Source: Clostridia bacterium (GTDB lineage Bacteria > Bacillota > Peptococcia > DRI-13 > SM3-B62). Taken from it: a DNA stretch of 64,000 nucleotides. Positions within the stretch are counted from its first letter, which is position 1. Every line of letters starts with the position of its first letter. A program made the position numbers and the translations under genes. Location of the stretch: positions 1 through 64,000 of the forward strand of contig JAHDSQ010000014.1 in assembly GCA_018432615.1 (NCBI GenBank), in the 5' to 3' direction. Below are positions 157-26,938 of this stretch, piece after piece. The notes beneath the pieces are model-generated. The model was given only the letters and a program-made list of their open reading frames with translations. It was not told the origin of the DNA and did no database searches.

Positions 157-396
157 ATGGAGGCAATTGCCAGCTCCTTTCTTACAGGAATGGTTCAGTT
201 GATGGTTGAGTATTGTAATTTAAAGGTATGGGAGATTGTATTTAATAAAGGTTTTGACATAATATTCAGCAATGAAACATTGACTCTCTTTATTTTTTCA
301 ATACAAATAATGTTCCTGATTATGATTTCCGTTTTCCTTCACAAGAAGAGAATAGCAATATTTTCGAGGGAAGAGAAAAATGAAAATTTTAAATGA
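157..396 (+). pseudogene. Possible N-terminal membrane piece of the agrC-like sensor, in a different frame
   Basis: An 80-codon open frame with two hydrophobic stretches (about residues 7-18 and 52-69), the second followed by basic residues, as at the end of a membrane helix. It runs into the next gene, overlapping its start by 17 bases in another frame. AgrC-type sensors normally carry about six membrane helices before the kinase core, but the downstream kinase ORF has only two. This piece may therefore be part of the same sensor, separated by a frameshift or split into a coupled second ORF. The frame is open back to base 46 but has no good start before the ATG at 157. It could instead be a stand-alone small membrane protein. 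Confidence 0.4.
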
Positions 397-3368: not shown

Positions 3369-3394
3369 AATTTATTTAAAAGAGGGTGGTTATA

Positions 3395-4554: not shown

Positions 4555-4573
4555 GGGGTAGGAGTTGAATGTA

Positions 4574-6283: not shown

Positions 6284-7408
6284 ATGTTTAAGTTTAATAA
6301 TGAGCAGTTGGTTTTTAAAGAATCGGCAAGAGAATTAGTTGAAAAGCATATTGAAAAGGGTGCGAATGAGAGGAATAATAATAAGCTCTATCCTACCGAG
6401 GTACTCAAGAAGTTAGGGGAGCTTGGATATAAAGGGCTGTTAATCCCTGAATATTACGAAGGTACAGAATTGGACATCGTATCCGCTTCGTTGATTATCT
6501 ATGAAGTAGCAAAGTCCGATGCTTCCTTGGCCCATCTGCTGGCAACAGCGAACTTTGGCTTTGTCTACCCCATACTAAGGTATGGGAGTGAAGCCCAGCA
6601 TGAAAAATATTTAAGGGCTTGTGCCGCAGGGGAAAAGGAAGGGATCTTCGCCTATGTTGAACCCCAGACAGAAATCAAAACCATTTTGCAGCCCGGCGGT
6701 GAAGCATATGTGCTTAACGGGACGAAATGCATGATCACGAATGCGCCTTATGCCGATTATGCGATGGTGGCGGTAACTAATCATCAACCCGTACCTGAGA
6801 TGGAAAGGCTCACGACGGTCATTGTTGATTTAAAAAACACCCCGGGTGTAGAAATTGGTAAAGCCGAAGAGACCATGGGGTTAAACTCTTTGAAAATAGC
6901 GGAAATATTCTTTAATAATGTTGAGCTTGACGAGGATTCTTTTTTAGGAGAACAAAACCAGGGAGGAGATATCATCATAGATACCACCAACCTGATGAGA
7001 ATCAGTAATTGTGCTATTGCCTTAGGGATTGCAGAGCGGGCCTATGAGGAAGCCTTGGCCTACGCCAGGTTCAGGAAGATTTACAGTACACCCTTGATTG
7101 AGATGCAGGCCATCAAACATAATTTTGCCGATATGAAGGCTGAGTTAGAGGTTATCAAGTTGTTGACTTTTCACACTGCTTCTTGTTTTCGGCAAAAAGC
7201 CTGGGAGGATTTCGATAATTGTGCGATGGCAAAGTATAAGGTGACAGAAAAGGCAAAATCTATCTGTGATTACTGCCTGCAAATCTTTGGGGGATATGGA
7301 TATATACAAGGAAATACCATTGAGCGTCTTTATCGGGATATCAGGGCTATGACCATCTTAGGCGGGGACTCCGATAGGTTGAAGTCCTTCCTTGCGATGG
7401 GTATTTAG
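6284..7408 (+). CDS. Acyl-CoA/acyl-ACP dehydrogenase-like flavoprotein lacking the usual catalytic Glu
   Basis: 374-residue protein with the complete acyl-CoA dehydrogenase fold: N-terminal helical, middle beta (SMITNAPYADYAM-type flavin-binding region near 145) and C-terminal helical with FGGYGYIQGN near 340. At the position of the base in short/medium-chain enzymes (the YEGT motif) it reads LGGDSD, so the Glu is Gly. Isovaleryl- and long-chain-type enzymes place the base elsewhere, so this does not prove inactivity. A strong AGGAGG site lies 10 bases after the ThDP gene. With a carrier protein in the cluster, the substrate may be an ACP-bound acyl group or a cyclohexenyl intermediate. Confidence 0.82.
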   Translation: MFKFNNEQLVFKESARELVEKHIEKGANERNNNKLYPTEVLKKLGELGYKGLLIPEYYEGTELDIVSASLIIYEVAKSDASLAHLLATANFGFVYPILRYGSEAQHEKYLRACAAGEKEGIFAYVEPQTEIKTILQPGGEAYVLNGTKCMITNAPYADYAMVAVTNHQPVPEMERLTTVIVDLKNTPGVEIGKAEETMGLNSLKIAEIFFNNVELDEDSFLGEQNQGGDIIIDTTNLMRISNCAIALGIAERAYEEALAYARFRKIYSTPLIEMQAIKHNFADMKAELEVIKLLTFHTASCFRQKAWEDFDNCAMAKYKVTEKAKSICDYCLQIFGGYGYIQGNTIERLYRDIRAMTILGGDSDRLKSFLAMGI

Positions 7409-7423: not shown

Positions 7424-8401
7424 ATGGTTGAGAAGATAAACCTGCAAAAAGACTGGGAAATTGAGACCCAGGAGATATGTGATAAGATCAAGCAGATTGT
7501 TTATGGATTTTTAAAAAAAGACGGGGTAGTTGTGGGCTTAAGCGGAGGGATCGATTCTTCCGTGACAGCGGCTTTGTGCGTGCGGGCTTTGGGAAAGGAA
7601 AAGGTACTGGGAGTCTTATTGCCGGAAAAGGAATCTAGCCAGGAAAGCGTTCCTTGTGCAAAAATGATTGCTCAGAAGCTGGGAATTGAATATGTCGAAA
7701 GGGATATCACCGGGATGGCTGAAGCCTTTGGTGTATATCAGAAGATTGAAGAAATCATCAGGAAATACTACCCGGAGTATGATAAAAGCCTGCGGTACAA
7801 GATTTCTTTACCCAACAATTTATTGGATAAGCAGGTTTTGAACCTTTACTCTTTATCTGTAGAGAATGAAAAAGGTGAAGAGGTATTCAGAAAGACATTG
7901 TCGTTTTACGATTATCGGGCTTTTCAGGCTGCTTTGAGTGTGAAACTAAGACTGCGTATGATCAACCTTTACTATTATGCGGAACAGCACAACAGGGCGG
8001 TTGCCGGAACAACGAATAGGTCGGAGTTTGAATTGGGCAATTTTTGCAAACATGGCGACGGAGGGATTGACTTTGAAGTGATTTCACATTTATACAAGAC
8101 CCAGGTCTATAAGCTGGCCGAATATTTAGATATTCCAATAGAAATACAGAAGAGGCCGCCTTCGCCGGATACGTGTAGTGCTTATGTCACCGATGAAGAA
8201 TTCTTCTTTTCGCTTCCTTTTAGTATTTTGGATCTGCTGTTGTCGACTCACTCAAAGGGGTACTCGGCGACTGAAGCGGCAGAGGTGCTGGGTCTTGAGG
8301 AACAACAGGTTGCAGCGGTGTTTAGGAATTTCCAAAACAAACAAAACAATACTAAGCATTTGAAAGTACTGCCGCCGATGTGCGGAACGATGGAGCCCTA
8401 A
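7424..8401 (+). CDS. NAD synthetase-like amidating ATP-pyrophosphatase (NadE paralogue)
   Basis: 325 residues of the NadE synthetase fold with the PP-loop VVVGLSGGIDSSVTAA (near 35-50) and the conserved GTTNRSEFELGNF and YKTQVYKLA segments. No glutaminase domain is present. The conserved NadE loop that normally reads PSAxLWxGQTDE is replaced by PSPDTCSAYVTDEE, and there is an insertion near residues 110-160. A full glutamine-dependent NAD synthase is encoded at 21823, so this copy is probably not for NAD supply. It may activate a carboxylate by adenylation and form an amide in the pathway. It could still be an ammonia-dependent NadE. Confidence 0.72.
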   Translation: MVEKINLQKDWEIETQEICDKIKQIVYGFLKKDGVVVGLSGGIDSSVTAALCVRALGKEKVLGVLLPEKESSQESVPCAKMIAQKLGIEYVERDITGMAEAFGVYQKIEEIIRKYYPEYDKSLRYKISLPNNLLDKQVLNLYSLSVENEKGEEVFRKTLSFYDYRAFQAALSVKLRLRMINLYYYAEQHNRAVAGTTNRSEFELGNFCKHGDGGIDFEVISHLYKTQVYKLAEYLDIPIEIQKRPPSPDTCSAYVTDEEFFFSLPFSILDLLLSTHSKGYSATEAAEVLGLEEQQVAAVFRNFQNKQNNTKHLKVLPPMCGTMEP

Positions 8402-8424
8402 AAATAACCTTTTTGGAGGAAAAA

Positions 8425-9450
8425 ATGGTTAAGAGAAATGTTTGCCAAAAATGTTTACTACCGCAAGAGTTTCCGGGGATAACTTTTTCTGCGGAAGGAG
8501 TTTGCAATTACTGTGAGGAGTATCAAAAGGAAGCAGTACAGGAAGACTTCGGCAGCTATGAGAAGCAGTTCTTAGAGTTTTGTGCTTCCCACAAAACAAA
8601 CAGTGAATATGACTGTTTACTGGCTTACAGCGGAGGCAAGGATAGCACATACACGCTGTATCTCTTAAGGGAGAAATATGGTTTAAATGTACTGGCTTAT
8701 ACTTTTGATAATGGTTTCATATCAGATGCGGCCAAGGTCAATATTAAAACAGTGACGGAGAATCTTGATACGGACAGCATCATCTTCTCGCCGCGAATTG
8801 AGCTTCTAAAGGCGATGTTCAAAAATGCTGCGTTGAATGATAAGGTCTATTCCCAGGCGGCTTTGATGAGGGCATCGGCTATTTGTACGACCTGCATAAA
8901 TTTCATTCGCTATAACTCCTTAAAGTTGGCCGTTGAGAAAAGGATCCCGCTCTTGATTTTCGGTTGGGCTCCCGGGCAGGTGGATGCCCGTTCGATAATC
9001 TTAAAGCCCCAGCCTGCATTTATGAAGAAGTCTCAGGATGTTTTTGTAAATGCCAACAAGAATTATCTGGAGAAGTATCAGGATATCTACTTCCTAACGG
9101 CTGAGCAATACAGTGATGGACATGGTATGCCGCACTTTGTCAATCCCTTGCTTTTTAACGAGTATGATATGGGGAAAATAAAGGCGGCCATTGAAGGTCT
9201 GGGTTGGAAAAACCCCCAGGATACGGATTCTAATTCGACCAATTGCTTGTTAAATACCTTTGGCAATTATATGCATCAAAAGAAGCATGGCTATAACCCG
9301 TATGTGCAGGAGATCAGCGAGTTGGTCCGCAGCGGTATCATCACCCGGGAAGAGGGCCTGGCAAGGCTTGAAAAAAGCCTTGATCAAAATATTATTGATG
9401 AGTGTATACGAAAGCTGGGTATTGATCGTGGAGCTTTAGGAGGTAGATGA
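8425..9450 (+). CDS. PP-loop ATPase related to N-acetyl sugar amidotransferases (WbpG/PseA-like)
   Basis: 341-residue protein. The N-terminal treble-clef-like motif CQKCLLPQEFPG...GVCNYC has two CxxC pairs, and the PP-loop LLAYSGGKDSTYTLYLL lies near residue 75, followed by TFDNGF. This is the WbpG/PseA-type arrangement, in which an ATP-activated group receives ammonia, sometimes from a HisH/HisF-like partner; no such partner is nearby. The start ATG 8425 has TTGGAGGA ahead of it. Two successive ATP-pyrophosphatases next to an adenylating ligase and a carrier protein suggest amide, amidine or thioamide chemistry. The true substrate is unknown. Confidence 0.7.
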   Translation: MVKRNVCQKCLLPQEFPGITFSAEGVCNYCEEYQKEAVQEDFGSYEKQFLEFCASHKTNSEYDCLLAYSGGKDSTYTLYLLREKYGLNVLAYTFDNGFISDAAKVNIKTVTENLDTDSIIFSPRIELLKAMFKNAALNDKVYSQAALMRASAICTTCINFIRYNSLKLAVEKRIPLLIFGWAPGQVDARSIILKPQPAFMKKSQDVFVNANKNYLEKYQDIYFLTAEQYSDGHGMPHFVNPLLFNEYDMGKIKAAIEGLGWKNPQDTDSNSTNCLLNTFGNYMHQKKHGYNPYVQEISELVRSGIITREEGLARLEKSLDQNIIDECIRKLGIDRGALGGR

Positions 9451-9451: not shown

Positions 9452-11008
9452 ATGCTGGTACAGGAGCTGTTGAAAAAAAGCGCAGAGAAATACGGCGATA
9501 AGACCTTTGCTGTTTGTGGAGAGAAACAGGTCACTTACCGGGAACTAGCTCATTATTCCGATATCTTAGCCTTAAAGCTGCGAATGTACGGTAAAGGATT
9601 AACTATGGGTGTCCTGGCGAAGAACTCTTTGGAGTACCTGATTTGTTATTTTGCGGTCATTAAAAGTGGTAACATTTTTGTGGCAATCAATCCATTAAAC
9701 AGAAAGAATGATTTGCAGAAAATAATGACAGATGCGGGGATAAGGGTTTTGTTCGCCGGAAACCAGCAGCTAAAGACAGTTTTGGAGATGGAAGAGGGGT
9801 TTCTACAAAAAATAGAATTGTATAGTCTTGACAACCCGGAGGAAGAAATCGCAGAAAAGGACGGACTGAGGGTTAAGAGTTTTCGGCAGGAGACGTACGT
9901 TGGTAATGTAGATGAAAGTGACAAAGAGATGTTTTATATGCAAGAAGATAATGAAATTGCGCAAATAATCTATACCTCAGGGACGAAAGGTTTTCCTAAT
10001 GGGGTATGCCTGACCCATCAAAATCTCATTGCCAATATGGAGCAGATTAAAGACAGGATAGATATCACGGAGCAGGACAATATGCTGGTTATCTTAGCCT
10101 TTTACTATTCCTATGGGAATTCCTTGATTTTAAGCCATTTGGCCAGTGGCGCAAAGTTGACCATCAATAACAACTCACAGTTGCCGGTATTTATCCTCAA
10201 GGATCTTACGGAGAAGAAATGCACCAGTATTGCCGGAGTCGCCACGAATTTCATTATGATGTTAAAAAGGTCTAAGTTTAAGGAGATGAAGCTGCCTCAT
10301 TTGAGGTATCTTACCTTTGCCGGAGAGCCGGTTGCCGACTGGGTCATTACTGAGCTTGCGTCAATGGGGTTGGATATTTATGTTATGTATGGACAGACTG
10401 AGGCAACAGCAAGAATATCGATCCTTAAGCCAAAGGAGTTGGCCGAAAAGCCAAGTTCGGTAGGCAGGCCGATCAAAGGTGTGGATTTGAAAATAATAGA
10501 TGCTGAGGGAAATGTTTTGCCGCCGGGTGAGTATGGTCAGGTGATAGTGTCCGGGCCTAATGTTATGAAGGGGTACTGGAATGACCCGGAATCGACGGCC
10601 GGCAAGATCAAAGATTCCTACTTGTATACGGGTGATTTTGGCATGCTTGATGAGGATGGTTACCTGTACATTTCCGGCAGAATGGATGAGATGATCAAGA
10701 TAGGAGGGGAAAGGGTTTTTCCTATTGAGATCGAAAAGACGCTTTTGGCACATGAACTGGTTGACGAGGCAGGGGTGCTGGGGGTCAAAGAGGTAAGTGA
10801 TGGGGAATCCTTCAGTGATTACATGGGTCAGACGATATATGCTTTTGTTGTTCCCAAAGAGGGATTGACGAAAAACGAGCTGTTTGTATTCTGCAAGGAG
10901 AATCTGCCGCCTCATAAGGTGCCGGGAAGGATAGTCTTTGTGGAGAATCTGCCCCGAACCAATACCGGTAAACTGAAAAGAAGGGAAATGATTAAATTTG
11001 TGCAGTAA
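9452..11008 (+). CDS. Acyl-AMP ligase (ANL superfamily), probable carrier-protein loading enzyme
   Basis: 518-residue adenylate-forming enzyme with the ordered family motifs: IYTSGTKGFPNGV (near 173), YGQTEAT (near 311), YTGDFG (near 392), a GRMDEMIKIGGERVFP hinge and the terminal NTGKLKR containing the catalytic Lys. It would activate a carboxylic acid with ATP and pass it to CoA or to the free acyl carrier protein three genes downstream. It starts one base after the stop of the previous gene region with an AGGAGGTAG site, so it is in the same operon. Substrate choice cannot be read reliably. Confidence 0.88.
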   Translation: MLVQELLKKSAEKYGDKTFAVCGEKQVTYRELAHYSDILALKLRMYGKGLTMGVLAKNSLEYLICYFAVIKSGNIFVAINPLNRKNDLQKIMTDAGIRVLFAGNQQLKTVLEMEEGFLQKIELYSLDNPEEEIAEKDGLRVKSFRQETYVGNVDESDKEMFYMQEDNEIAQIIYTSGTKGFPNGVCLTHQNLIANMEQIKDRIDITEQDNMLVILAFYYSYGNSLILSHLASGAKLTINNNSQLPVFILKDLTEKKCTSIAGVATNFIMMLKRSKFKEMKLPHLRYLTFAGEPVADWVITELASMGLDIYVMYGQTEATARISILKPKELAEKPSSVGRPIKGVDLKIIDAEGNVLPPGEYGQVIVSGPNVMKGYWNDPESTAGKIKDSYLYTGDFGMLDEDGYLYISGRMDEMIKIGGERVFPIEIEKTLLAHELVDEAGVLGVKEVSDGESFSDYMGQTIYAFVVPKEGLTKNELFVFCKENLPPHKVPGRIVFVENLPRTNTGKLKRREMIKFVQ

Positions 11009-11023: not shown

Positions 11024-12010
11024 ATGATTACGATTAGAGCTGTGCGCCCGGAAGATCTGGTGCAATGGAGCCGGCTGTGGCAAGAGTACTGGGAAGACAA
11101 CAAATATGTGATAAGAAGCCATGATGTCGCCTATTACGAGTATCGCTGCTTTAATAATAAATACACCGATGCCTTTTGCTGTCTTGATGAAAATGGCAAT
11201 ACGATAGGTTTTTGCGGTATTGGCAAGAGAGAACTAATTCGCCATGGAAGACGTTCGTTGGCAGCCGAATTTACAGACTTTATTTTTGACCCGCGCTACA
11301 GAATGCGGGGGCATGTGAAAGAGTTTGCGCGGCGTTTGTTCAGCGGAGCATTGGCAAGGTTTGACTGGTGTGTGTTTTACCCCGTCAACCGGGAGTCCTT
11401 TATCACTTGGCGCTTTATGTTCAAATTCGACCGGATGTATGAGATTAACAAGTGGGCATTACTCTTGGAATATGAGGAGAGAGACGTTCAAGAAATCGGG
11501 TATGAATGTGTTGAACAGGTGTCGCTTAATGCACCGTGTATCAGAAAAAACAGTGCCTATTTGCAATGGCGGTATTTTAAACATCCTTCTTGCTACAAGC
11601 TTGTGGGACTGCAAAGAGGCGGCAGGACAGCAGGATATTTTACTTATCTTGAGGTTGAAATAGACGGTATTTCCGGGGTGGAAATAGGGGGGATATATTA
11701 TGAGGACATTGCAAAGACAGGGTATAAAGGGATGGAGATGTGTCTGGATAGTATAGTGGCATTTATTAAAAGCCGGGGTAGCAAGTTTATGATATTACAG
11801 GCACTAAAAGGTTGCGGCTGGGACCGGTATTTGGCTAATTGGGAACGCAGTAAAAAAACATTTGAAAAAAAATATGCGTTGCTGCTTAACATGAGGAATT
11901 TCAACCGGGGATTGAAGCCGAAAAAAGAAGTGGCACCTGATGCCTTTGCGCTTTTAGGTGAGGAGTTGGATGCTCCGCGCGAGGTTTCATTTGTCACCAA
12001 GATACTATAA
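11024..12010 (+). CDS. GNAT-family acyltransferase-like protein
   Basis: 328 residues. The N-terminal segment IRAVRPEDLVQWSRLW opens like a GNAT fold. A GFCGIGKRELIR beta4-like strand and an EFTDFIFDPRYRMRG acyl-CoA binding-like turn follow. The remainder resembles a second, weaker GNAT half, as in FemX/MSMEG-type double-GNAT proteins. In the cluster it could transfer an acyl group from CoA or ACP to an amine. It sits 15 bases after the ligase with CGGAGG ahead of its ATG. Assignment to family is moderate and substrate is unknown. Confidence 0.6.
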   Translation: MITIRAVRPEDLVQWSRLWQEYWEDNKYVIRSHDVAYYEYRCFNNKYTDAFCCLDENGNTIGFCGIGKRELIRHGRRSLAAEFTDFIFDPRYRMRGHVKEFARRLFSGALARFDWCVFYPVNRESFITWRFMFKFDRMYEINKWALLLEYEERDVQEIGYECVEQVSLNAPCIRKNSAYLQWRYFKHPSCYKLVGLQRGGRTAGYFTYLEVEIDGISGVEIGGIYYEDIAKTGYKGMEMCLDSIVAFIKSRGSKFMILQALKGCGWDRYLANWERSKKTFEKKYALLLNMRNFNRGLKPKKEVAPDAFALLGEELDAPREVSFVTKIL

Positions 12011-12032: not shown

Positions 12033-12290
12033 ATGATGAAACAAAAAAATGTCAGAGAAGAATTAAAAGATTTTATTAAAGAAAGGTTTTTGGCGGGGAG
12101 CACAGGTGAGAACCTGGACTATGATTCTAAGCTGCTGGATGAACAAATTATTGACTCTTCCGGGGTGCTGGTTTTGATTATGCATATTGAGAAGGCATAC
12201 AACATCACAATTGATGATGCCGAACTCATACCGGAGAATTTTAACTCAATATCCTACCTGGCAGGATTAATTGAAAAGAAGGTAAGCTAA
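12033..12290 (+). CDS. Free-standing acyl/peptidyl carrier protein
   Basis: 85-residue acidic helical protein with the phosphopantetheine attachment motif IIDSSGVLVL; Ser42 follows the conserved Asp. It is preceded by GTAAGGAG and lies between the GNAT and a dehydrogenase-like gene. A dedicated discrete carrier protein, separate from the fatty-acid acpP (which normally sits with fabF/plsX), is strong evidence for a secondary-metabolite assembly path. The likely loader is the ligase at 9452 and likely clients are the two aberrant dehydrogenases and the KASIII-like enzyme. Confidence 0.88.
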   Translation: MMKQKNVREELKDFIKERFLAGSTGENLDYDSKLLDEQIIDSSGVLVLIMHIEKAYNITIDDAELIPENFNSISYLAGLIEKKVS

Positions 12291-12320: not shown

Positions 12321-13454
12321 ATGATGTCTCAGAATGAAGGCTGTGCCAAGAGGGAGGAAATCAAGGCTTTTATTGAGGAAAAGATTAAACCCTTTGAAAA
12401 AAAACCGCACAATTTTGCTGAAAGCTGGCCGTTGTTCGGTGAGCAAAATCTATTCGGGCTTTTGTCAAGGGCCTGCAGAAATCAAGAACCGGCTCTGTTT
12501 GAGGAACATTTGGTTTTAATTGAGGAATTATCCAAGGTGTCGATCAGCGGGTTATTGATCAGTTTCCTCAGTCAGGGTTGGATTATCGAATGCATTGAGA
12601 GGCTGGCTACCAATGAATACCATCGACAGGCCTTGCAGGAATGCAAAAAGGGCAAGAAGATAGGGGCCTTTTGCCTGACTGAGGCCGATTACGGGTCGAG
12701 CTACAGTAATCTATCGACCTATGCGGTTGAAGAAGATGGTAAGTGGAGGATAGAGGGAGAGAAGGTTTATATAACCAATTCTGCCTTGGCTGATTACTTC
12801 ATTGTGGTGGCTAATACCTCGGATGAAGGCAAGCAGAAGATATCCTTGTTTCTGCTGGACAAGGAAACGGCGGATATCAGCATTGAGGAAAGAATTGGGT
12901 TTATGGGGAATGTTAATTCAGGGATTTCCAAGATTAAGATTTCTTGTCAGGGGCTTGATGAAAAGCACCTGCTCGGCAAGCAAGGTACAGGGTTTTTCCT
13001 TTTGCCGAAGTGTTTGGGCTTTGAAAGAATGGATATTTCCCTGTGCTCGTTATACATTGCTAAAGAAGGGTTGCAACGTACTCTGGCCTTTTTGGGCAAG
13101 AGGAAGAACCAAGAGGAAAAGCTCCTTGATTATCAAGTCATCAGACATAAGATCGTCGATATGTCTGCCAGGTTGGAGTTGGTCAGGACGTATATCTTAA
13201 GCACGGCGGAGAAGCTGTTGGCAAACGAGGAGTGCTCAAGAGAGGTTATCCTTTGTAAGATATTGGCTACCGAAGCGGCCCGAGACATACTTTTACAATC
13301 GATGCAACTGACGGGGGCCTACGGTTTCACGAAGGAAAGCGGCATGATTACGATGTTCAACGATATTGCGCCGTTGACTGTCGGAGGCGGGGCGAATGAT
13401 GCGCTGCGCAATGCTTTATTTGGATTGGCGAGGAGTATGATCAACAGAAAGTAA
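12321..13454 (+). CDS. Divergent acyl-CoA/acyl-ACP dehydrogenase-like flavoprotein
   Basis: 377 residues with the acyl-CoA dehydrogenase order of domains. The N-terminal helical part is unusually divergent; the middle part has FCLTEADYGSS and an ITNSALADYFIVVAN flavin region; the C-terminal part has TGAYGFTKESG. The catalytic Glu motif is replaced by VGGGAND. This is the second such protein in the cluster, and its position immediately after the carrier protein favours an ACP-bound substrate, as in PltE/RedW-type oxidation or FkbI-type enzymes. Electrons could pass to the EtfBA pair downstream. AAGGAG precedes the ATG pair at 12321. Confidence 0.78.
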   Translation: MMSQNEGCAKREEIKAFIEEKIKPFEKKPHNFAESWPLFGEQNLFGLLSRACRNQEPALFEEHLVLIEELSKVSISGLLISFLSQGWIIECIERLATNEYHRQALQECKKGKKIGAFCLTEADYGSSYSNLSTYAVEEDGKWRIEGEKVYITNSALADYFIVVANTSDEGKQKISLFLLDKETADISIEERIGFMGNVNSGISKIKISCQGLDEKHLLGKQGTGFFLLPKCLGFERMDISLCSLYIAKEGLQRTLAFLGKRKNQEEKLLDYQVIRHKIVDMSARLELVRTYILSTAEKLLANEECSREVILCKILATEAARDILLQSMQLTGAYGFTKESGMITMFNDIAPLTVGGGANDALRNALFGLARSMINRK

Positions 13455-13488
13455 AGCAAGTATCCTATGAGATATGAAGGTGATTAGA

Positions 13489-14784
13489 GTGAAGGATATA
13501 CAAAGTAAATACAAGGTGGATTTTGATATTGCGACCAACTTTGATAAGGACTTTACAGATGAGATTGCTGAATATGGTGATTTTAAGTGGGTATACGGGA
13601 AGTTGAACCATGATGTGGTCGGAGGAGGCAGGCCTTCAATCAGGCTGCCGATTATCTCCTGGGAAGAGTTGGGGGATTATGTGGCATACTGCCATGAACG
13701 GGGCATTAAGTTCAATTATCTTCTCAATGCCTTGTGCCTGGGGGGAATGGAACTTCAGAAATCCTTTCATGAAGAGGTTATTGAACTACTAAAGAAGCTG
13801 ACTGAGATAAAGGTTGATGGTGTTACCGTGGCTTCTCCCTACTTGTGTGAAATTATTAAGGAACAGTTTCCGCATTTTTATGTCTCCGTGTCTGTTTACA
13901 ATAAGGTGCAGAGCATACCACCGCTAAAGTATTGGCGCGATATCGGGGCGGATGAGATTACGCTGTTTCATACAGCCAACCGGGACTTTAATTTATTGAG
14001 AAGGATGCTCAGTTACGCCAAAGAGATTGGCTTGGTGATACGGCTGATTGCCAATAACAGTTGTCTTCACGAATGTCCTTTTCATGCCAATCATGCGGTT
14101 ACTCACGCTCATGGCTCCAAAGACGATGAGCAGACGAGGGTGTTTCATATCGACTACCAGGTTTTAAACTGCAATCTTTTTAAGATTAAGAATCCGTATC
14201 GTATTATGGCTTCCGAATGGATCAGGCCGGAAGACATTCATTATTATGAAGAATTATGCGAGGAAATAGGGTATGAGGATTTGACGATCAAGCTGACGGA
14301 ACGCGGCAGGACAAGTGAATGGCTGTTGAGAACCGCCAAGGCTTATCACAACAGATCGTATCAAGGGAATCTGCTCGATATTATCAATTATGTCGGCAAG
14401 GGAGATTTTTACGGCAAACTGCATGATGAAAAATACTGGGACAAGGTAGAGCAGGAAGGTTACAACAAGGAAATGGTCAAGAATTACCGGGAATCGGTTT
14501 TCTACAAGTTGCCTTATGTGGATAATACCAAGCTGGATGGGTTCTTAAAGTTCTTTATCACTAATTATCAGTGCGATCATAAAATCTGTGACGACAGTGA
14601 TTATGACGTAGAAACAGCAACAAAAGATAATGTCAAGGGAGAAGTATGTTCGTACTGTAGGAATTGGGCTAAAAAGGCTATAACGATTGACCCGGAAGAA
14701 AGGCGTCAAATTATTGCTAAGGCCCAGGAAACGCTGGACAATATCAATTCCAGCAGAATATTTTACCGGGAAGAAAGGGGCTAA
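13489..14784 (+). CDS. U32 'peptidase'-family Fe-S protein (UbiU/TrhP/RlhA-like)
   Basis: About 431 residues of the U32 family: a TIM-barrel N-terminal part with SVSVYNKV and the family Cys motif NNSCLHECPFHANH, plus a further Cys in LNCNLFKIKNPY. Additional Cys pairs near the C-terminus (CDHKIC, CSYC) are family-atypical. Biochemically characterised U32 members (UbiU/UbiV, TrhP, RlhA) are oxygen-independent hydroxylation factors with a [4Fe-4S] cluster, and TrhP/RlhA/UbiUV chemistry depends on prephenate. In a cluster that also makes and uses prephenate this is suggestive of anaerobic hydroxylation. GTG 13489 is preferred for its GAAGGTGAT site; ATG 13474 is the alternative. Confidence 0.75.
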   Translation: MKDIQSKYKVDFDIATNFDKDFTDEIAEYGDFKWVYGKLNHDVVGGGRPSIRLPIISWEELGDYVAYCHERGIKFNYLLNALCLGGMELQKSFHEEVIELLKKLTEIKVDGVTVASPYLCEIIKEQFPHFYVSVSVYNKVQSIPPLKYWRDIGADEITLFHTANRDFNLLRRMLSYAKEIGLVIRLIANNSCLHECPFHANHAVTHAHGSKDDEQTRVFHIDYQVLNCNLFKIKNPYRIMASEWIRPEDIHYYEELCEEIGYEDLTIKLTERGRTSEWLLRTAKAYHNRSYQGNLLDIINYVGKGDFYGKLHDEKYWDKVEQEGYNKEMVKNYRESVFYKLPYVDNTKLDGFLKFFITNYQCDHKICDDSDYDVETATKDNVKGEVCSYCRNWAKKAITIDPEERRQIIAKAQETLDNINSSRIFYREERG

Positions 14785-14788: not shown

Positions 14789-15763
14789 ATGAGACTCTCC
14801 GGGATAAAAAGGATAGGGATAACTTACAGCGATTACTATTTGCCGGCAAGGTTTATGGGTATTGAGGAGTATTTCAGCAGTATTAAAAACTTCACACTCC
14901 CCGCAGGATATGAGGATATAGCCGCTTATTGCGATAACTATTATAAACAGAGGAAGATCAAGGGTATTTACATTGAAGAGGAAAAGAAGGAGATTGAGGT
15001 ATTTGTAGGCTTGATGAACCGGTTTTTCTTAGAAACAGATGTCAAGCCGGAGGATATCGATATTCTCATTTACACCAAGGGTGTTCCTATGCACTCCACC
15101 GATGTCAATGTGCCTTTTTATATCCAAAAGGAGTTCGGGTTAGACAACGTGATCACTTTTAATGTTGATCAGACCTGCGGTGCTTCCTTGATGTCTCTGC
15201 ATATCATTGAGAGGATGATCCAAACCGGAAGGTATAGATCAGGGCTAGTTCTGTCTTCCAGCATTGTACAGGACATGGAAAAGCGCAATGTTCAGCTGAC
15301 CTTGCTTAGTGACGGTCTGGGGTTAATGTACATAGATTCAGATCCCCGCAGATTTTTGATACAGGATTTCTTGGCCAAGACCACCGGAAGTCGTAGTTTT
15401 ACTATGGAAAGCTTCACAAAAAGAGAGAATTACAGGGAACTGGTAAAATACCTGCAAAACGGTGCCGATACGATGAAGGAGCTTTTGGCAAGAAACAACT
15501 TAAGCTTTGAGGACATAAAACTAATTTCACCCCAGAACACCACTTACGGGGGTTGGGAAATTTATGCCAACCTACTGGATATCAGCATGGATAAGATCTT
15601 CCTGGATAACATACCGAGAGGTGCTCATGCAGGGGATGTTGATATAACAAGAAACCTAACGGATATTTACAGAGAGAGGCTCTTAAAAAGAAATGAGCAG
15701 ATGATATCCTACGGGTTAGGATGGGGTACCAGTTGGAATGCCGCATTGCTTAAAATGATGTAA
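14789..15763 (+). CDS. KASIII / FabH-like thiolase-fold enzyme with altered catalytic triad
   Basis: 324-residue thiolase-fold protein. The nucleophile is Cys130 in VDQTCGASLMSL. Where FabH has PHQxN, this protein reads SPQNTT (247-252), so the catalytic His is absent. Where FabH has the second-site Asn (GNxxAAS) there is PRGAHAGDVD with His280. It is therefore unlikely to be a standard decarboxylating condensing enzyme; acyl transfer (CerJ/DpsC-like ester formation) or non-decarboxylative condensation is more likely. The ATG at 14789, four bases after the U32 stop, has GAAAGGGG ahead. The carrier protein is the expected donor or acceptor. Confidence 0.78.
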   Translation: MRLSGIKRIGITYSDYYLPARFMGIEEYFSSIKNFTLPAGYEDIAAYCDNYYKQRKIKGIYIEEEKKEIEVFVGLMNRFFLETDVKPEDIDILIYTKGVPMHSTDVNVPFYIQKEFGLDNVITFNVDQTCGASLMSLHIIERMIQTGRYRSGLVLSSSIVQDMEKRNVQLTLLSDGLGLMYIDSDPRRFLIQDFLAKTTGSRSFTMESFTKRENYRELVKYLQNGADTMKELLARNNLSFEDIKLISPQNTTYGGWEIYANLLDISMDKIFLDNIPRGAHAGDVDITRNLTDIYRERLLKRNEQMISYGLGWGTSWNAALLKMM

Positions 15764-15885: not shown

Positions 15886-15906
15886 CCTAATTGTGAGGTG
15901 GAAAGC

Positions 15907-17181
15907 ATGAAAGTGTTAGATGTTGTGTGTTCTGCCAGCAAAACCGGTTTCTTTTTTGACGACCAGCGAGCTATTAAAATCAAGGCTGTACAGGACGGAT
16001 TTTGTTATGTTGGACAGCCGGTCACGCCGGGTTTCAGTAGAATAAGGCACGCCGGTGAAGCGGTCTCTTTTACGCTTGTTCTGGAGGACGGGCAATTGGC
16101 TTGGGGGGATTGTGTTGCAGTTCAGTATTCAGGGAGTGCGGGGAGGGATCCGCTCTTTCTGGCGGAAAAATCCTTACCTCTCATGGAAAAGGAAATAGCA
16201 CCGCGTTTAAGGGGGAGAGAGATCAAGGATTTCCGAGGTTTAGCGGAGGAGATGGATAAGATCACCATCAACGGGAAAAGGTTGCATACTGCTATCCGTT
16301 ATGGAGTAACGCAAGCCATTCTTGATGCCGTCGCTAAGACGAGGAAGCTTACGATGGCCGAAGTGATCCAAGAGGAATATAGAATAACCTCAGGGTTAAA
16401 GCGTGTACCGATCTTAGCCCAATCAGGTGATGACCGTTACATCAATGCCGACAAAATGATTATCAAGGGTGCGGATGTGTTGCCCCATGGATTGTTCAAC
16501 AATATGGAGAAAAAACTGGGCCATAAGGGAGAGATACTCAAGGAATATGTAGCTTGGCTGCGGGAAAGAATTCTGCGCTTGCGGACACAGAAATCGTATA
16601 ACCCCGTGATACACCTGGATGTTTATGGAACGATTGGGCAGGCCTTTAATAATGAGACGGAAGAAATAGCCGTCTATTTAGGAGAGTTAAGGAAGTTGGC
16701 TTCTCCCTTTAAGTTGCTCATTGAAGGGCCTGTGGAAATGGAAAACAAAGCCGAACAGATCCGGGCACTCAAAGATTTGCGTGAAACCCTGAAGGAAAAA
16801 AGAATAGCTGTGGGAATAGTGGCTGATGAATGGTGCAACAGCTTGGAGGATATTAAGTTGTTTGCCGATAAAAAGGCAGTCGATATGATTCATATCAAGA
16901 CCCCTGATTTGGGCGGGGTCAATAATGTCGTTGAAGCTATTCTTTACTGCAAGAGAAAAGGTGTGGCTGCGTACTGCGGGGGGACCTGTAACGGAACTGA
17001 CAAGTCAGCCAGGGTATCGACGAATATCGCGATGGCTTGCGGAGCTGATTTGTGCATGGCGAAACCGGGCATGGGTGTCGACGAAGGCTATATGATCGTT
17101 TATAACGAAATGAATCGTGTTTTAGCCTTGAATAAGGCGAGAGAAAGAATCAACTCTCTTCTGGCAGTTAGCTTCTTGTAG
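15907..17181 (+). CDS. Methylaspartate ammonia-lyase
   Basis: 424-residue enolase-superfamily enzyme interconverting L-threo-3-methylaspartate and mesaconate plus ammonia (EC 4.3.1.2). The C-terminal barrel carries ADEWCNSLEDIK, the catalytic-Lys strand HIKTPDLGGVNNV, AYCGGTCNGTDKSA and AKPGMGVDEG, all as in the Clostridium tetanomorphum enzyme. GTGAGGTGG precedes ATG 15907. No glutamate mutase (glmES) is near, so the normal methylaspartate fermentation pathway is not encoded here. In this setting the enzyme may run toward amination or act on a related diacid. It begins the second transcription block of the cluster, after the structured RNA. Confidence 0.92.
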   Translation: MKVLDVVCSASKTGFFFDDQRAIKIKAVQDGFCYVGQPVTPGFSRIRHAGEAVSFTLVLEDGQLAWGDCVAVQYSGSAGRDPLFLAEKSLPLMEKEIAPRLRGREIKDFRGLAEEMDKITINGKRLHTAIRYGVTQAILDAVAKTRKLTMAEVIQEEYRITSGLKRVPILAQSGDDRYINADKMIIKGADVLPHGLFNNMEKKLGHKGEILKEYVAWLRERILRLRTQKSYNPVIHLDVYGTIGQAFNNETEEIAVYLGELRKLASPFKLLIEGPVEMENKAEQIRALKDLRETLKEKRIAVGIVADEWCNSLEDIKLFADKKAVDMIHIKTPDLGGVNNVVEAILYCKRKGVAAYCGGTCNGTDKSARVSTNIAMACGADLCMAKPGMGVDEGYMIVYNEMNRVLALNKARERINSLLAVSFL

Positions 17182-17217
17182 TGAGTTCGTAGAGAGAAAG
17201 GATCAAGGTAAGTCGTG

Positions 17218-17952
17218 ATGAGGATTGGAGTTTGTATTAAGGGAGTAGTTGAAGACAACGAAGGAAGTAAATGGGTGATAAACACCTTTGATGAGTATGC
17301 CCTGGAGGAGGCAGTGAGGCTTAAGGAAAAGGATGAGAAGACGGAAATCGTGGTAATCACCGTAGGACACAAAGGGTTGAAGGAAATGCTGTATGCAGCC
17401 CTAGCGACCAAAGCGGACAGGGCTGTACATGTGGTTACCCCAGATGAAGACATGAGTGGTTTTGGTATCGCTACCATCTTAAAAAGTGTTGTTAGGCAGG
17501 AAAGAATAGACCTTGTTTTGTTAGGGAAACAAGCGGTTGATAACGCCAGCCATCAGATAGGAGGCATGCTGGCAGGATTGCTGAACTGGGCGCAGGCGAT
17601 AGATGTTATAGAGTTGGATATAGAGGGAGATGAAGCAACTGCGCACAGACTGGCGGAAGGCGGCAAGATAGAGGTGATACGGGCAAGGCTGCCTGTGGTG
17701 ATCGGTGCAGCCAAGGGACTTAATGAGCCGCGTTATCCAGCGCTGCGGGGTATCATTGCTGCCAAGAAGAAGGAGATTAAGGAAATAGCTTTGGAGGAAC
17801 TTGGCCTGGCCAGGGAAGACTTATGCGGGATTAAGGTAGAAAGGGTATTTGCAGCGCCGGAAAAAGAAGCCTGTAAATTCATTGAGGGGGAGCCGGGCAA
17901 AGCGGCCGAGGAAATTGTCAGGTTGTTAAGGGAAGAGGCAAAGGTCATCTAA
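17218..17952 (+). CDS. etfB: Electron transfer flavoprotein beta subunit
   Basis: 244-residue EtfB: nucleotide-binding start IGVCIKGVVEDNEG, then LVLLGKQAVDNASHQIGGMLA and the family motif LPVVIGAAKGLNEPRYPALRGI. It pairs with EtfA downstream (32-base gap) to carry electrons between acyl-CoA dehydrogenases and a quinone oxidoreductase or ferredoxin. GTG 17215 and ATG 17218 are adjacent possible starts. Whether it is a bifurcating Etf cannot be settled by eye. In context it would serve the dehydrogenase at 19025 and perhaps the two divergent ones. Confidence 0.93.
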   Translation: MRIGVCIKGVVEDNEGSKWVINTFDEYALEEAVRLKEKDEKTEIVVITVGHKGLKEMLYAALATKADRAVHVVTPDEDMSGFGIATILKSVVRQERIDLVLLGKQAVDNASHQIGGMLAGLLNWAQAIDVIELDIEGDEATAHRLAEGGKIEVIRARLPVVIGAAKGLNEPRYPALRGIIAAKKKEIKEIALEELGLAREDLCGIKVERVFAAPEKEACKFIEGEPGKAAEEIVRLLREEAKVI

Positions 17953-17983
17953 CATTAACAGCAAAACGGTAAGGGGATTGTTT

Positions 17984-18982
17984 ATGAACGGAAGGATTAT
18001 TGTTTTTTTGGAGGGTAAAAAGAAAGAGGGGCTTAAAAAGAGTGCAAGGGCGCTTCTCAAAGCCGCTTGGCTTCTTTCACAGCAGACGGGAAAGCCGGTT
18101 GAGGCTGTTCTGATGGGAGAAGACCCCAAACAGTACGGTGAGGAAGTATTAAGGAAAGGGCTTAATTGTATTCATTATGTTAAGTCAGCAGCGCTTAAAG
18201 ACTATGATGTTCATCAATACGCACCTGCTTTCTTTTCGGTAGTGAAGGATTTAAACCCCTGGGTAATCATGGGGAATTCTACTTTGGTGGGCAAAGACTT
18301 GTTTCCAAGAGTAGCGGCTATGTTCAGTGTTCCGATGATTTCCGATTGTCAGAAAATTACCTTCGAAGGGCCTGGGTTAAAGGTCGTTAAGGCCTGCTTT
18401 TATGGGAAAAAGCAGGCGGAATTGAGCTTTACGGGCAACCTCCCATATATCGTTACCCTGGTTCCTAATTCGGCGGAGGTTGAAATAGAAGGGCAAGAGG
18501 CGGCAGTAGCGGAAGAGACGAAAGAGAGAGAAATAGAATATATTGCGGATGAGAAGCCGAAGGGCAGGTTAGTCGAGATAATTATGAAAGAAACGGAGAA
18601 GCAGGATGTGCTGGAAGCCGAAGCAATCGTTGCAGGCGGAAGGGCGTTGAAAGAGAAGGCAGATTTCTTGTTGCTGGAGGAGCTGGCGGAAAAACTTGAT
18701 GCTGCCGTCGGTGCATCGCGGGCGGTTGTTGACTCTGATTTGGCCTCTCCTGAAATGCAGATTGGGCAGTCCGGCAAGACGGTTGCTCCAAAATTGTATT
18801 TCGCTTTAGGCATCTCCGGTGCGGCACAGCATATTGCCGGGATGCGGGGAAGCAAAGTGGTTGTGGCGGTGAACAAGGATAAACAAGCCCCGGTCTTTGA
18901 TTACGCTCAGTACGGAATTGTAGGGGATGTCTATCAAATAGTGCCGGAGATAATCAAAGCCCTTACTGATTTAGATGGGTGA
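17984..18982 (+). CDS. etfA: Electron transfer flavoprotein alpha subunit
   Basis: 332-residue EtfA with a variable N-terminal half and the conserved C-terminal FAD domain (GISGAAQHIAGM and VAVNKDKQAPVFDYAQYGIVGD). AAGGGG lies seven bases before ATG 17984; a TTG at 17978 is less likely. No extra N-terminal ferredoxin domain is present. Together with etfB and the acyl-CoA dehydrogenase that follows 42 bases later it forms the usual dehydrogenase-Etf unit, but here it is sandwiched between methylaspartate ammonia-lyase and DAHP synthase genes. Confidence 0.93.
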   Translation: MNGRIIVFLEGKKKEGLKKSARALLKAAWLLSQQTGKPVEAVLMGEDPKQYGEEVLRKGLNCIHYVKSAALKDYDVHQYAPAFFSVVKDLNPWVIMGNSTLVGKDLFPRVAAMFSVPMISDCQKITFEGPGLKVVKACFYGKKQAELSFTGNLPYIVTLVPNSAEVEIEGQEAAVAEETKEREIEYIADEKPKGRLVEIIMKETEKQDVLEAEAIVAGGRALKEKADFLLLEELAEKLDAAVGASRAVVDSDLASPEMQIGQSGKTVAPKLYFALGISGAAQHIAGMRGSKVVVAVNKDKQAPVFDYAQYGIVGDVYQIVPEIIKALTDLDG

Positions 18983-19024
18983 GTTCAGGAATAGAAAAGA
19001 AATATCTAGAAGGGAGTGGCATGG

Positions 19025-20185
19025 ATGGAGCATTTTTTAACCGAAAAGCAGCAGATGATCAAGGAACTGGCGGGGAGGATAGCCAGGGAGAAAATAGCGC
19101 CTCTTGCCGCCAAATATGATGAGGAGCAGGAGTTTCCCCACGAGATAATAAAGGTACTGGCTGGTGCGGATTTGTGCGGAATATACATAGAAGAAAAGTA
19201 TGGGGGATTAGGGGAAGGTATTTTTGAAACCTCTTTGATGGTAGAGGAATTAAGCAAAGCGTGCGGAGGAATAGCGCTGGCTTTTGCGGGCACAGCTTTG
19301 GGCGTTTATCCGATTATCCTGTATGGTACAGAAGAGCAAAAGCAGAAGTATCTTCCTGCTGTTGCTTCCGGAGAAAAGCTGGCTGCCTTCAGTTTGACGG
19401 AAGCTAATGCCGGAAGTGATGCCGCGGGTATTACCACCAGTGCGGTGGAGGACGACGGGGAGTATTTGCTTAACGGGACGAAGCAGTGGGTTACAAATGG
19501 CGGAGAGGCCGATATTTATACTGTAATTGCCTGCACGAACAGGCATAAAGGTACCAGGGGATTTTCGGCTTTCATTGTTGAAAAGGATACTCCGGGCTTT
19601 ACCTTTGGCAAAAAGGAAGATAAGATGGGGATCAGAGCGTCTTCGACCAGGGAGTTGATATTTGACAATTGCAGGATACCTGCGGAGAATTTACTTGGCA
19701 GAGAGGGCTTAGGCTTCATCATTGCTATGAAGACACTGGATTGGACAAGGCCGGGGGTTGCTGCTCAGGCACTGGGAATTGCTCAGGGGGCCTTTGATGA
19801 GGCGGTTAAATACGCGAAGGAGAGGGTGCAGTTTGGGCAGCCTATTGCCTCTTTCCAGGCTATCCAGCATATGCTGGCCGATATGGCAATCCAGTTGGAG
19901 GCAGCGAGGTGTCTTCTTTATCAAACCTGTCGACATATTGACAGCGGGGCTAAGGATATATCCAAGGAATCTGCTATGGCTAAGGTGTTGGCCTCGGATG
20001 TAGCCATGAAGGTTACGGTGGATGCGGTGCAGATTCTCGGTGGCTACGGATATATGAAGGACTATCCGGTGGAAAAGAGGATGAGGGACGCGAAAATCAC
20101 CCAGATTTATGAAGGGACGAATGAGATTCAGCGTAATATAATTGCTCAGGTGGTTATCAAAGAGCAGACAGGCAGAAAATTATAG
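19025..20185 (+). CDS. Acyl-CoA dehydrogenase (short-chain/butyryl type)
   Basis: 386-residue enzyme with all family marks: FSLTEANAGSDAAGI, KQWVTNGGEAD, the helix ARCLLYQTCR, QILGGYGYMKDYPVEK and the catalytic-Glu motif QIYEGTNEIQRN. Unlike the other two homologues in this cluster it keeps the canonical Glu and so should perform ordinary alpha,beta-desaturation or reduction of a CoA thioester. AGAAGGGAG precedes ATG 19025. Its neighbours etfB and etfA are the natural electron partners. No crotonase, thiolase or 3-hydroxybutyryl-CoA dehydrogenase is adjacent, so this is not a butyrate operon. Confidence 0.92.
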   Translation: MEHFLTEKQQMIKELAGRIAREKIAPLAAKYDEEQEFPHEIIKVLAGADLCGIYIEEKYGGLGEGIFETSLMVEELSKACGGIALAFAGTALGVYPIILYGTEEQKQKYLPAVASGEKLAAFSLTEANAGSDAAGITTSAVEDDGEYLLNGTKQWVTNGGEADIYTVIACTNRHKGTRGFSAFIVEKDTPGFTFGKKEDKMGIRASSTRELIFDNCRIPAENLLGREGLGFIIAMKTLDWTRPGVAAQALGIAQGAFDEAVKYAKERVQFGQPIASFQAIQHMLADMAIQLEAARCLLYQTCRHIDSGAKDISKESAMAKVLASDVAMKVTVDAVQILGGYGYMKDYPVEKRMRDAKITQIYEGTNEIQRNIIAQVVIKEQTGRKL

Positions 20186-20198
20186 GGGGGCGGTTTGG

Positions 20199-21272
20199 AT
20201 GAAGAAGAATTTAAAGGGTTTAAGGCAGGAGATAGATAACGTCAACATTTCGATCTTAGAAATGTTAAATAAGCGGGCGGGTTTGTTGAGGGAAGTTGTG
20301 GAGTTGAAGGACGAAGAGGATATCCAGTTTTTTGACGCTGAACGTGAGACGTTAATGACGGAATACATTCTGCAGAACAACAAAGGGCCATTATATAACG
20401 AGTTGGTCAAGCAAGTCTTTGCTGCGATATTTTCCACTTCGTTGAAATTTATGGGGAAAAGTCGGGAGAAGAAGCTTTTGATTAGTTCGGCTTCTCCAGA
20501 GACTTATCCAACCATACAGAAGATGTTCAAGATAGAGGGTGATAATCCCGTAATAATTGCCGGACCGTGTGCGGTGGAAAAGCTGGATTACCTGGAGAAG
20601 GTTGCAGAGTTTCTGAAGGCAAGAGGAATCAAGTTTATGCGAGGCGGAGCATATAAGCCTCGGACCTCGCCCTATGATTTTCAAGGGTTGAGGGCGGACG
20701 GATTAAGGATGCTGCGGGATGTCGCTAAAAGATATGATCTGATTACCGTATCGGAGGTGGTGGATCCCCGGGATGTGGAACTTGTGGCTCAGCATATAGA
20801 TGTCCTGCAGGTGGGAGCACGGAATATGCACAATTACGAATTGTTGAAAGAAATCGGACAAACTCGCCATCCGGTGGTGTTAAAAAGAGGCATGAGTTCT
20901 ACAATTTCAGAGTTTATGTTTGCGGCGGAATACATCGTTTTGCGAGGCAATAAAAACGTAATCATGTGCGAGCGGGGTATCCGGACCTATGAGACGAAAA
21001 CCCGCAACACGCTGGATATTTCTTCTATCCCTATCGTTAAGAAGGAGACAAATTTACCGGTAATTGCCGATGTCAGTCATTCTTTAGGGAGAAAGGACAT
21101 TGTGAACAGTATTGCCGGAGCCGTTTTGGCCGCAGGGGCTGACGGCATCATGGTAGAGGTCCATCCCTTCCCCGAGCTGGCCCTTTCCGACAGTAAGCAG
21201 CAGCTTTCAATGGATGAATTCGATAAGATGCTGAAGCATTTGGAAAAACACAATAATTACGTCATAGGATAG
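20199..21272 (+). CDS. aroA: Chorismate mutase-DAHP synthase fusion (AroQ + type I-beta AroA)
   Basis: 357-residue bifunctional protein. Residues 1-90 are an AroQ chorismate mutase (LRQEIDNVNISILEMLNKRA, then the RETLMTEYI and NELVKQVF helices). Residues about 105-355 are DAHP synthase with AGPCAVE, GGAYKPRTSPYDFQG, GARNMHNYELL and DVSHSLGRKDIV. It makes both the first shikimate intermediate and prephenate, as in Bacillus AroA(G). Inside this cluster it would raise the supply of prephenate for the BacA-like decarboxylase. The start is ATG 20199 after GGGGGGCGG. A general housekeeping role is possible, but no other aro gene is adjacent. Confidence 0.92.
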   Translation: MKKNLKGLRQEIDNVNISILEMLNKRAGLLREVVELKDEEDIQFFDAERETLMTEYILQNNKGPLYNELVKQVFAAIFSTSLKFMGKSREKKLLISSASPETYPTIQKMFKIEGDNPVIIAGPCAVEKLDYLEKVAEFLKARGIKFMRGGAYKPRTSPYDFQGLRADGLRMLRDVAKRYDLITVSEVVDPRDVELVAQHIDVLQVGARNMHNYELLKEIGQTRHPVVLKRGMSSTISEFMFAAEYIVLRGNKNVIMCERGIRTYETKTRNTLDISSIPIVKKETNLPVIADVSHSLGRKDIVNSIAGAVLAAGADGIMVEVHPFPELALSDSKQQLSMDEFDKMLKHLEKHNNYVIG

Positions 21273-21728
21273 ATGGCTATGAAGAGGTTAAAAATTAACC
21301 CCAACCTGTGTATTGGCTGTAATGAATGTGAATTAATATGCTCGTTGCTGCATGAAGGGGAGTTTAATCCTGCCAGAGCACGGATCAAGGTTAACTATGA
21401 CAAGGAAACAAACAGCTATTCTCCTAATGTCTGTCGTAACTGCGCTGTGCCTAAGTGCAAGGAGGCGTGTTGCCACGATGCCCTGGTTTTTGATGAAAGA
21501 ATAGGCACGCTTGTTTGCGATGAGAATAAATGTGCAAGATGTTATGCCTGTGTGGAGGCTTGTTCCTTTAGCGCGATTAGAATCGGTCCGGAGGGGAATA
21601 TCCTTAAATGCGACTTGTGCGGGGATGAGCCCTTGTGTGTGGTTGTATGTTCGAGGAGGTCCGGTAATAGCAGTCAGTTGATGGACAACGAAGAAGGAGC
21701 ACATGCCTTGAATTATGTGGATGTATGA
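21273..21728 (+). CDS. 4Fe-4S dicluster/polyferredoxin electron carrier
   Basis: 151-residue protein of the CooF/HycB-type ferredoxin family with four Cys groups: CIGCNECELIC, CRNCAVPKCKEAC, CARCYACVEAC and CDLCGDEPLCVVVC, enough for up to four [4Fe-4S] clusters. Such proteins serve as electron-transfer subunits for partner oxidoreductases. It abuts the DAHP synthase stop, so it belongs to the same transcript. It may supply low-potential electrons to the U32 protein or accept them from the Etf/dehydrogenase pair; no direct partner is identifiable. Confidence 0.88.
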   Translation: MAMKRLKINPNLCIGCNECELICSLLHEGEFNPARARIKVNYDKETNSYSPNVCRNCAVPKCKEACCHDALVFDERIGTLVCDENKCARCYACVEACSFSAIRIGPEGNILKCDLCGDEPLCVVVCSRRSGNSSQLMDNEEGAHALNYVDV

Positions 21729-26063: not shown

Positions 26064-26137
26064 GGCAGGCGGCTTCCGTGTACCATTCTTAGGGGAAGTC
26101 TTTGAAAGTACTTTTTTAGTGGGGGGTGTTGAGACTG

Positions 26138-26902: not shown

Positions 26903-26938
26903 TGTAGATGCTCCTTGTCAAAGTATTTTAGTGCTATC

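Follow-up and report, generated by a model that had tools for sequence, protein, structure and literature searches.

The window, the whole stretch of 64,000 nucleotides analysed here (on contig C58 of a 3.16 Mb genome in 70 contigs), contains between positions 2334 and 21728 a conserved cluster of genes, all of which lie on the forward strand. The first gene encodes an O-methyltransferase (PF00891; 2334-3368) with orthologues in L149 and L150, and it is followed by genes for a prephenate dehydratase (PDT)-like protein that lacks the TRF motif and the C-terminal part (3386-3937), a BacB-like cupin (3934-4554; weak match to BacB 3h7j, E 3e-4), an acetolactate synthase-like thiamine-diphosphate enzyme (4565-6274), acyl-CoA dehydrogenase-like protein 1 (6284-7408), an NAD synthase-like ATP-pyrophosphatase (7424-8401), a WbuX-like (N-acetyl sugar amidotransferase-like) ATP-pyrophosphatase (8380-9450), an AMP-forming acid ligase (9452-11008), a putative GNAT-type acyltransferase (11024-12010; a weak match under the Pfam cut-off), a stand-alone carrier protein (12036-12290) and acyl-CoA dehydrogenase-like protein 2 (12321-13454). 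The U32-family gene (13474-14784) comes next, and downstream of it are genes for a KAS III-like condensing enzyme (14789-15763), a methylaspartate ammonia-lyase (15898-17181; TIGR01502, 574 bits, cut-off 286), the beta (17215-17952) and alpha (17978-18982) subunits of an electron transfer flavoprotein (ETF), acyl-CoA dehydrogenase 3 (19016-20185), a bifunctional chorismate mutase-DAHP synthase (DAHPS-CM; 20142-21272; NF009239, 496 bits, cut-off 279) and a ferredoxin-like 4Fe-4S protein (21273-21728). No glutamate mutase was noticed to accompany the methylaspartate ammonia-lyase among the ORFs read. Histidine kinase-like and AgrB-like genes lie just upstream of the cluster (window 380-1848; L149:2305-6339), and in G404 such genes precede a series of short membrane-type ORFs, alike and each about 165 amino acids long. 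Further downstream in the window, at 26126-28168, genes for a low-molecular-weight phosphatase/arsenate reductase-like protein, an ArsR-like regulator and a permease were recognised by eye.

The U32 open frame starts with ATG and encodes 436 amino acids; GTG at 13489, the start used in an earlier sequence-only reading of this DNA, is an alternative, with AAGGTG just 5' of it. That reading's claim that a U32 protein is encoded here holds up by sequence and by predicted structure. PF01136 (Peptidase_U32) matches at 35.7 bits (cut-off 22.4), although over residues 100-164 only, and a PDB sequence search that admitted E values up to 10 had a single match, 5D88 (E 1.6e-5), itself a U32 protein. AlphaFold2, run on the window protein with 52 relatives, gave a confident model (pLDDT 89.1, pTM 0.89) whose top match among solved structures is again 5D88 (232 residues aligned at Z 22.1, the runner-up having Z 14.1), with the structural matches mostly spanning residues 1-303, so the modelled protein has the U32 barrel fold and belongs to the U32 superfamily. 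The gene is under purifying selection (dN 0.013 and dS 0.346 between the window and its same-genus orthologue in G404), and a search of a plasmid collection for relatives of the window protein gave no match.

Several neighbours point to chemistry on a carrier protein. The 84-residue carrier scores 20.3 bits with the PP-binding model PF00550, 0.5 bit under the cut-off of 20.8; its counterparts in G402 and G022 score above that cut-off and the one in Cellulosilyticum below it, and its PDB matches include the peptidyl carrier proteins 2my5, PigG and PltL. With this protein and an activating ligase near the U32 gene, the run classes as a carrier-protein-dependent biosynthetic cluster. The top NCBIfam match of acyl-CoA dehydrogenase-like protein 2 is L-prolyl-[peptidyl-carrier protein] dehydrogenase (under the cut-off), and such an enzyme beside the U32 protein and a peptidyl-carrier-like protein suggests tailoring of a carrier-bound acyl group.

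The cluster is kept in four genomes, those of the window, G404, G402 and Cellulosilyticum ruminicola. All four have the AMP ligase, GNAT, carrier protein and U32 genes in that order, with the acyl-CoA dehydrogenase-like gene 2 before U32 where it is present, and then KAS III within 1.6 kb. G404, from the same genus as the window, has the same gene order and a 97% identical U32 protein; G402, from another family of the same order, also has this gene order and a 70% identical U32 protein, and acyl-CoA dehydrogenase-like gene 2 is missing there. The C. ruminicola U32 protein is 66% identical over its first part and the PDT-like and cupin proteins are fused; no methylaspartate ammonia-lyase, DAHPS-CM or ferredoxin gene adjoins the cluster, and the sole DAHP synthase (DAHPS) is encoded elsewhere in that genome. 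Several Cellulosilyticum cluster genes are split into overlapping frames (L063:10001-11253 and other L063 and L148 genes), probably through draft-assembly errors. The two adjacent ATP-pyrophosphatase genes (window 7424-9450) are kept in all four versions, and amidation or thioamide chemistry is possible for them. A haem-copper oxidase (COX1) was looked for in the four cluster-bearing genomes and found in none.

The sequence-only reading had placed the U32 gene between a prephenate-consuming module and a prephenate producer; both are present in the same co-directional gene run, but several genes away, the PDT-like/cupin pair at about 9 kb and DAHPS-CM at about 5 kb. The cluster PDT-like and DAHPS-CM genes are second copies, the housekeeping copies being on contig C62. 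Where the housekeeping PheA shows NQTRF, the cluster PDT-like proteins show MSWN-VFER and then end or run into the cupin. The window protein combines a PDT fold with the absence of both the TRF motif and an ACT domain, which we take to be the marks of the protein named BacA, and from these features it and the cupin are likely a BacA/BacB-type pair in which the PDT-like member is likely a prephenate decarboxylase. The DAHPS-CM may serve this BacA-like enzyme alone, and since the PDT-like protein explains its presence and Cellulosilyticum has no adjacent DAHPS, the local DAHPS-CM is not proof that the U32 protein uses prephenate. The local part of the argument from a "prephenate-rich cluster" is therefore weak, Cellulosilyticum having kept U32 and the PDT-cupin protein with no DAHPS beside them; the linkage across the family, described below, is stronger.

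The sequence-only reading also supposed that the protein carries the four cluster cysteines of characterised U32 proteins, and here it has to be replaced. The motif CX6CX15CX3C, given as the four-Cys motif of characterised U32 oxidases in a review (PMC11574389), is absent from the window protein, which has a CX3C, H207 and C233 instead. Among 89 family sequences (five of 90 U32 ORFs were dropped, three as over-long and two as partial, and four were added from other genomes), C197 is conserved in 88, and C201, H207 and C233 in all 89; near the C terminus, C367 and C372 are conserved in 88, and C392 and C395 in all 89. The family was collected with the patterns WIRPED[IL][HA] and N[NQS][STG]CL[HYG][EF]CP, so part of the conservation seen for WIRPED, C197 and C201 follows from the search itself, and H207, C233, C367, C372, C392 and C395 lie outside the patterns. 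The barrel set C197/C201/H207/C233 and the four C-terminal cysteines suggest two putative Fe-S sites in the family, unlike the single motif of known U32 oxidases; the term "Fe-S" is thus applied to the window protein from Cys/His conservation. A profile alignment with canonical U32 proteins (probability 99.2) covers residues 37-194 and stops just before the cysteines and, with the canonical motif absent, any transfer of mechanism from TrhP or UbiUV is by homology of the first half of the barrel only.

Searching 84,980 species genomes turned up 317 relatives, and the analysis used the best 80 hits among them (79 loci); by sequence, the window protein is a member of a large, deep and apparently uncharacterised U32 family. 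The nearest relatives outside the cluster lie beside PKS-NRPS genes in Desulfoluna (L064) and beside NRPS genes in Eubacterium (L065) and Ruminococcus (L066). The Desulfoluna locus also has, 8 kb downstream of U32, a gene for the ADH synthase of the alternative shikimate entry (309 bits, cut-off 299). In G022 a carrier protein gene follows U32 directly, with NRPS and carbamoyltransferase genes further on. Eight of the 14 rows of the window clade, from seven loci in Ruminococcus and other Oscillospiraceae, have no recognised biosynthetic partner, with the exception of L095, where a ligase-like frame was seen by eye downstream of U32; the partnerless loci are neutral, neither for nor against an oxygenase. 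Type III PKS genes occur near U32-family genes in L103 (11157-12964), L117, L135 (11263-12306), L137 and L140; they are within 300 bp of U32 in four of the 79 loci (best 80 of 317), in L103 with a methyltransferase gene between, and these U32 proteins could possibly hydroxylate without O2 in the making of phenolic lipids. In 14 of the same 79 loci from the best 80 of 317, a gene for a B12-binding radical SAM protein is no more than 300 bp from U32, often with more than one U32 copy (L069, L080, L084, L085, L087, L088, L089, L091, L097, L106, L110, L126, L127 and L132). At L008:456-3628 (- strand), genes for a radical SAM-SPASM protein, a U32 protein with the CX3C motif and a 258-amino-acid Tyr/Asn/Trp-rich repeat protein stand in a row that looks like a peptide-modification cluster.

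In 12 of the 79 family loci (best 80 of 317), U32 has a co-directional DAHPS gene no more than 300 bp away, versus none of 42 canonical-U32 loci (Fisher value 0.004, with relatedness ignored), a count that is exploratory because the adjacency was noticed first and counted afterwards. Anywhere in those 79 loci from the best 80 of 317, DAHPS occurs 13 times, the thirteenth being in the orthologous cluster L062. The chorismate mutase (CM) domain is in the same protein in ten of the 12 by BLAST and in L083 by NCBIfam models, and the L082 gene is cut by the contig end. CM-DAHPS lies upstream of U32 in Myxococcota and related loci and DAHPS-CM downstream in L078 and L083, and these differing domain orders suggest more than one origin of the link. 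The adjacent cases come mainly from relatives in Myxococcota and Bacteroidota, which fall outside the 14-row clade of the window. A replication sample of 235 Myxococcota genomes, small and from one phylum, had 11 with a strong family member, nine of these with an adjacent DAHPS; five of the 11 had already been counted in the first set and were dropped, and five of the six further members have the adjacent gene versus none of the 11 canonical loci of that sample. Eight weak or unclassified loci (L167, L168, L169, L170, L173, L174, L175 and L183) fell in neither group, and in L174, which was thus not counted, DAHPS is 656 bp away. The simplest reading of the adjacency is that these genes would supply prephenate to the U32 family.

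One branch of the family is associated with triterpene cyclases. Oxidosqualene cyclase-like genes are present in 13 of the 79 loci (best 80 of 317), nine of them within 300 bp of U32 (examples are L081:1362-3386, L092:11378-13345, L108:2508-4505, L120:12392-14362, L123, L160 and others), and some of these loci also carry DAHPS-CM, prenyl synthase and mevalonate genes. All 12 of the cyclase-like proteins examined contain DCTAE, which we take to be the oxidosqualene cyclase signature; the 2,3-oxidosqualene cyclase model gives 718 bits for L120 and 711 bits for L108, both under its cut-off of 851. The normal substrate of such a cyclase needs an inserted oxygen. A search with PF08491 found squalene epoxidase in none of the 13 genomes with these loci, mostly draft metagenome genomes, and matched E. 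coli and Caulobacter (presumably UbiH-like proteins), the controls being ones other than genomes with a known squalene epoxidase. Squalene/phytoene synthase is present in nine of 12 of these genomes. A COX1-family protein in 11 of the 13 counts against an anaerobic story. An oxidosqualene cyclase with no recognisable squalene epoxidase gives indirect support to oxygen insertion by the family, and the linked U32 proteins are candidates, and a strong lead, for O2-independent squalene epoxidation. Wei et al. (PMC4919349) report no anaerobe among the Osc-bearing bacteria that they found, and allow that another pathway may yet come to light.

From the gene context and the conserved residues, we think it probable, with some reserve, that the window U32 protein performs O2-independent oxygenation of a carrier-bound natural-product intermediate with prephenate as the oxygen donor. 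It would be a dedicated oxygenase (hydroxylase or epoxidase) built on the U32 barrel, in a family apart from the U32 enzymes of RNA and ubiquinone. The AMP ligase would adenylate an acid made by the cluster for transfer to the stand-alone carrier protein, where an acyl-CoA dehydrogenase-like enzyme may desaturate it, and the U32 enzyme would then put one oxygen atom into the carrier-bound acyl group. Prephenate would be bound or activated at the putative barrel iron-sulfur site (C197, C201, C233 and perhaps H207), the oxygen coming from its hydroxyl, and the second site (C367, C372, C392 and C395) may pass electrons, perhaps from the cluster ferredoxin or ETF. DAHPS-CM would maintain a pool of prephenate on which this step and the BacA-like prephenate decarboxylase would both draw. 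The fold in the model, the family, the conserved residues, the conservation of the cluster and the family-wide linkage to DAHPS-CM and biosynthetic genes are observations; the Fe-S clusters, prephenate as donor, the carrier-bound substrate and the order of steps are what we infer from them.

The best-supported competitor is that the U32 protein carries out some other Fe-S-dependent reaction in the pathway (for example the reduction, dehydration or isomerisation of a carrier-bound intermediate), with prephenate uninvolved and DAHPS-CM supplying the BacA-like enzyme only. The cysteine set does differ from that of the known hydroxylases, the PDT-like and cupin proteins alone explain the local DAHPS-CM, and the Cellulosilyticum U32 gene, like 67 of the 79 loci of relatives (best 80 of 317), has no DAHPS beside it. 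The window cluster cannot separate this reading from oxygenation, because the BacA-like enzyme also accounts for its DAHPS-CM; what bears on the choice comes from the relatives, where DAHPS adjoins U32 in the 12 of 79 loci (best 80 of 317) and five of six further loci with no BacA-like gene noticed there, and where U32 adjoins DCTAE-containing oxidosqualene cyclases, with their need for an oxygenated substrate. We consider another Fe-S reaction unlikely on balance but well worth keeping in mind.

Two further readings are much less probable. A displaced housekeeping RNA hydroxylase of the TrhP or RlhA type, the case that would have undone the sequence-only reading, agrees with the PF01136 match and with a weak match to the TrhP equivalog NF011996 (NCBIfam), but the latter is 20.5 bits against a cut-off of 534, and the genome encodes, elsewhere, a 408-amino-acid TrhP-like and an 893-amino-acid RlhA-like protein, both with CX6CX15CX3C. 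In a 100-row phylogeny, the canonical proteins (11 rows, namely E. coli TrhP, RlhA, UbiU and UbiV, the two paralogues from the window's own genome and five others) split from the 89 family rows with an SH-aLRT of 98, on a tree with several very long branches, which places the window protein outside the TrhP/RlhA/UbiU/UbiV clade. On the TrhP cut-off, the paralogues, the profile and motif comparison and this split, a displaced TrhP or RlhA was rejected, and we rate it as the least probable reading of all. Of the dedicated natural-product role that the sequence-only reading proposed, what stands is a conserved small-molecule cluster, a protein that is not TrhP, RlhA, UbiU or UbiV, and a wider family repeatedly found next to a prephenate-supply gene and next to NRPS, type III PKS or oxidosqualene cyclase genes. 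The other reading, in which the U32 protein is a peptidase or maturation protease acting on a peptide made by the cluster, would suit the family name and fold, and the solved structure that matches best, 5D88, carries the annotation of a collagenase-family protease; it is nonetheless improbable, given that the window ORFs, including those of the gene run, contain no recognised peptide precursor, that the conserved Cys/His residues occupy places resembling the Fe-S sites of U32 oxidases, and that relatives adjoin genes for triterpene cyclases and type III PKSs, where no peptide is involved.

More widely, we raise tentatively, as a proposal we consider possible though rather more doubtful than not, that the window protein and its family form an unrecognised class of prephenate-fuelled, O2-independent oxygenases of NRPS/PKS carrier-bound intermediates, type III polyketides and triterpenes, and that its branch in oxidosqualene cyclase operons (sometimes with DAHPS-CM) epoxidises squalene without O2. 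Hydroxylation without O2 is rare. If the oxygenase reading is true, it would explain how anaerobes decorate natural products and would extend to many small-molecule pathways, and a compact operon with a prephenate-supply gene and carrier-bound substrates would offer tractable in vitro systems; a squalene-epoxidising branch would uncouple the sterol pathway from molecular oxygen, and the oxidosqualene cyclase branch matters for the question whether rock sterols can be taken as proof of oxygen. Searches of open-access papers in PMC found neither a U32 protein described as acting in natural-product or triterpene biosynthesis nor the link to DAHPS-CM. What appears new here are putative U32 oxidases whose cysteine architecture and field of action both differ from those known before.

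Parts of the locus resemble known systems. Prodiginine-type prolyl-carrier modules (RedW, PigA, PigG) likewise combine an AMP ligase, a stand-alone carrier protein and an acyl-CoA dehydrogenase-like enzyme, but the window matches fall under the family cut-offs and the window adds a U32 protein. As in bacilysin synthesis, where BacA and BacB are the counterparts, a TRF-less PDT-like protein and a cupin stand side by side (or are fused, in Cellulosilyticum), but the BacB match is weak and the rest of the window cluster differs from what we take to be the content of the bacilysin operon. TrhP (YegQ) and RlhA (YdcP) share with the window protein the U32 barrel and the alignment over residues 37-194; TrhP- and RlhA-dependent hydroxylation requires prephenate (PMC6599085), and the genomic link of the window protein's family to prephenate supply would be a possible parallel. 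Unlike these two, the window protein lacks CX6CX15CX3C, falls in a separate clade and is encoded inside a biosynthetic cluster; TrhP has no C-terminal four-Cys set such as that of the window protein, and the C-terminal cysteines of RlhA have another spacing. UbiU and UbiV differ from it in acting as a pair, in falling in another clade and in their cysteine sets (E. coli sequences). They offer a functional parallel to the oxygenase reading, as U32 proteins proposed to hydroxylate a small molecule in anaerobic ubiquinone synthesis, for which prephenate is described as the oxygen source in the review (PMC11574389).
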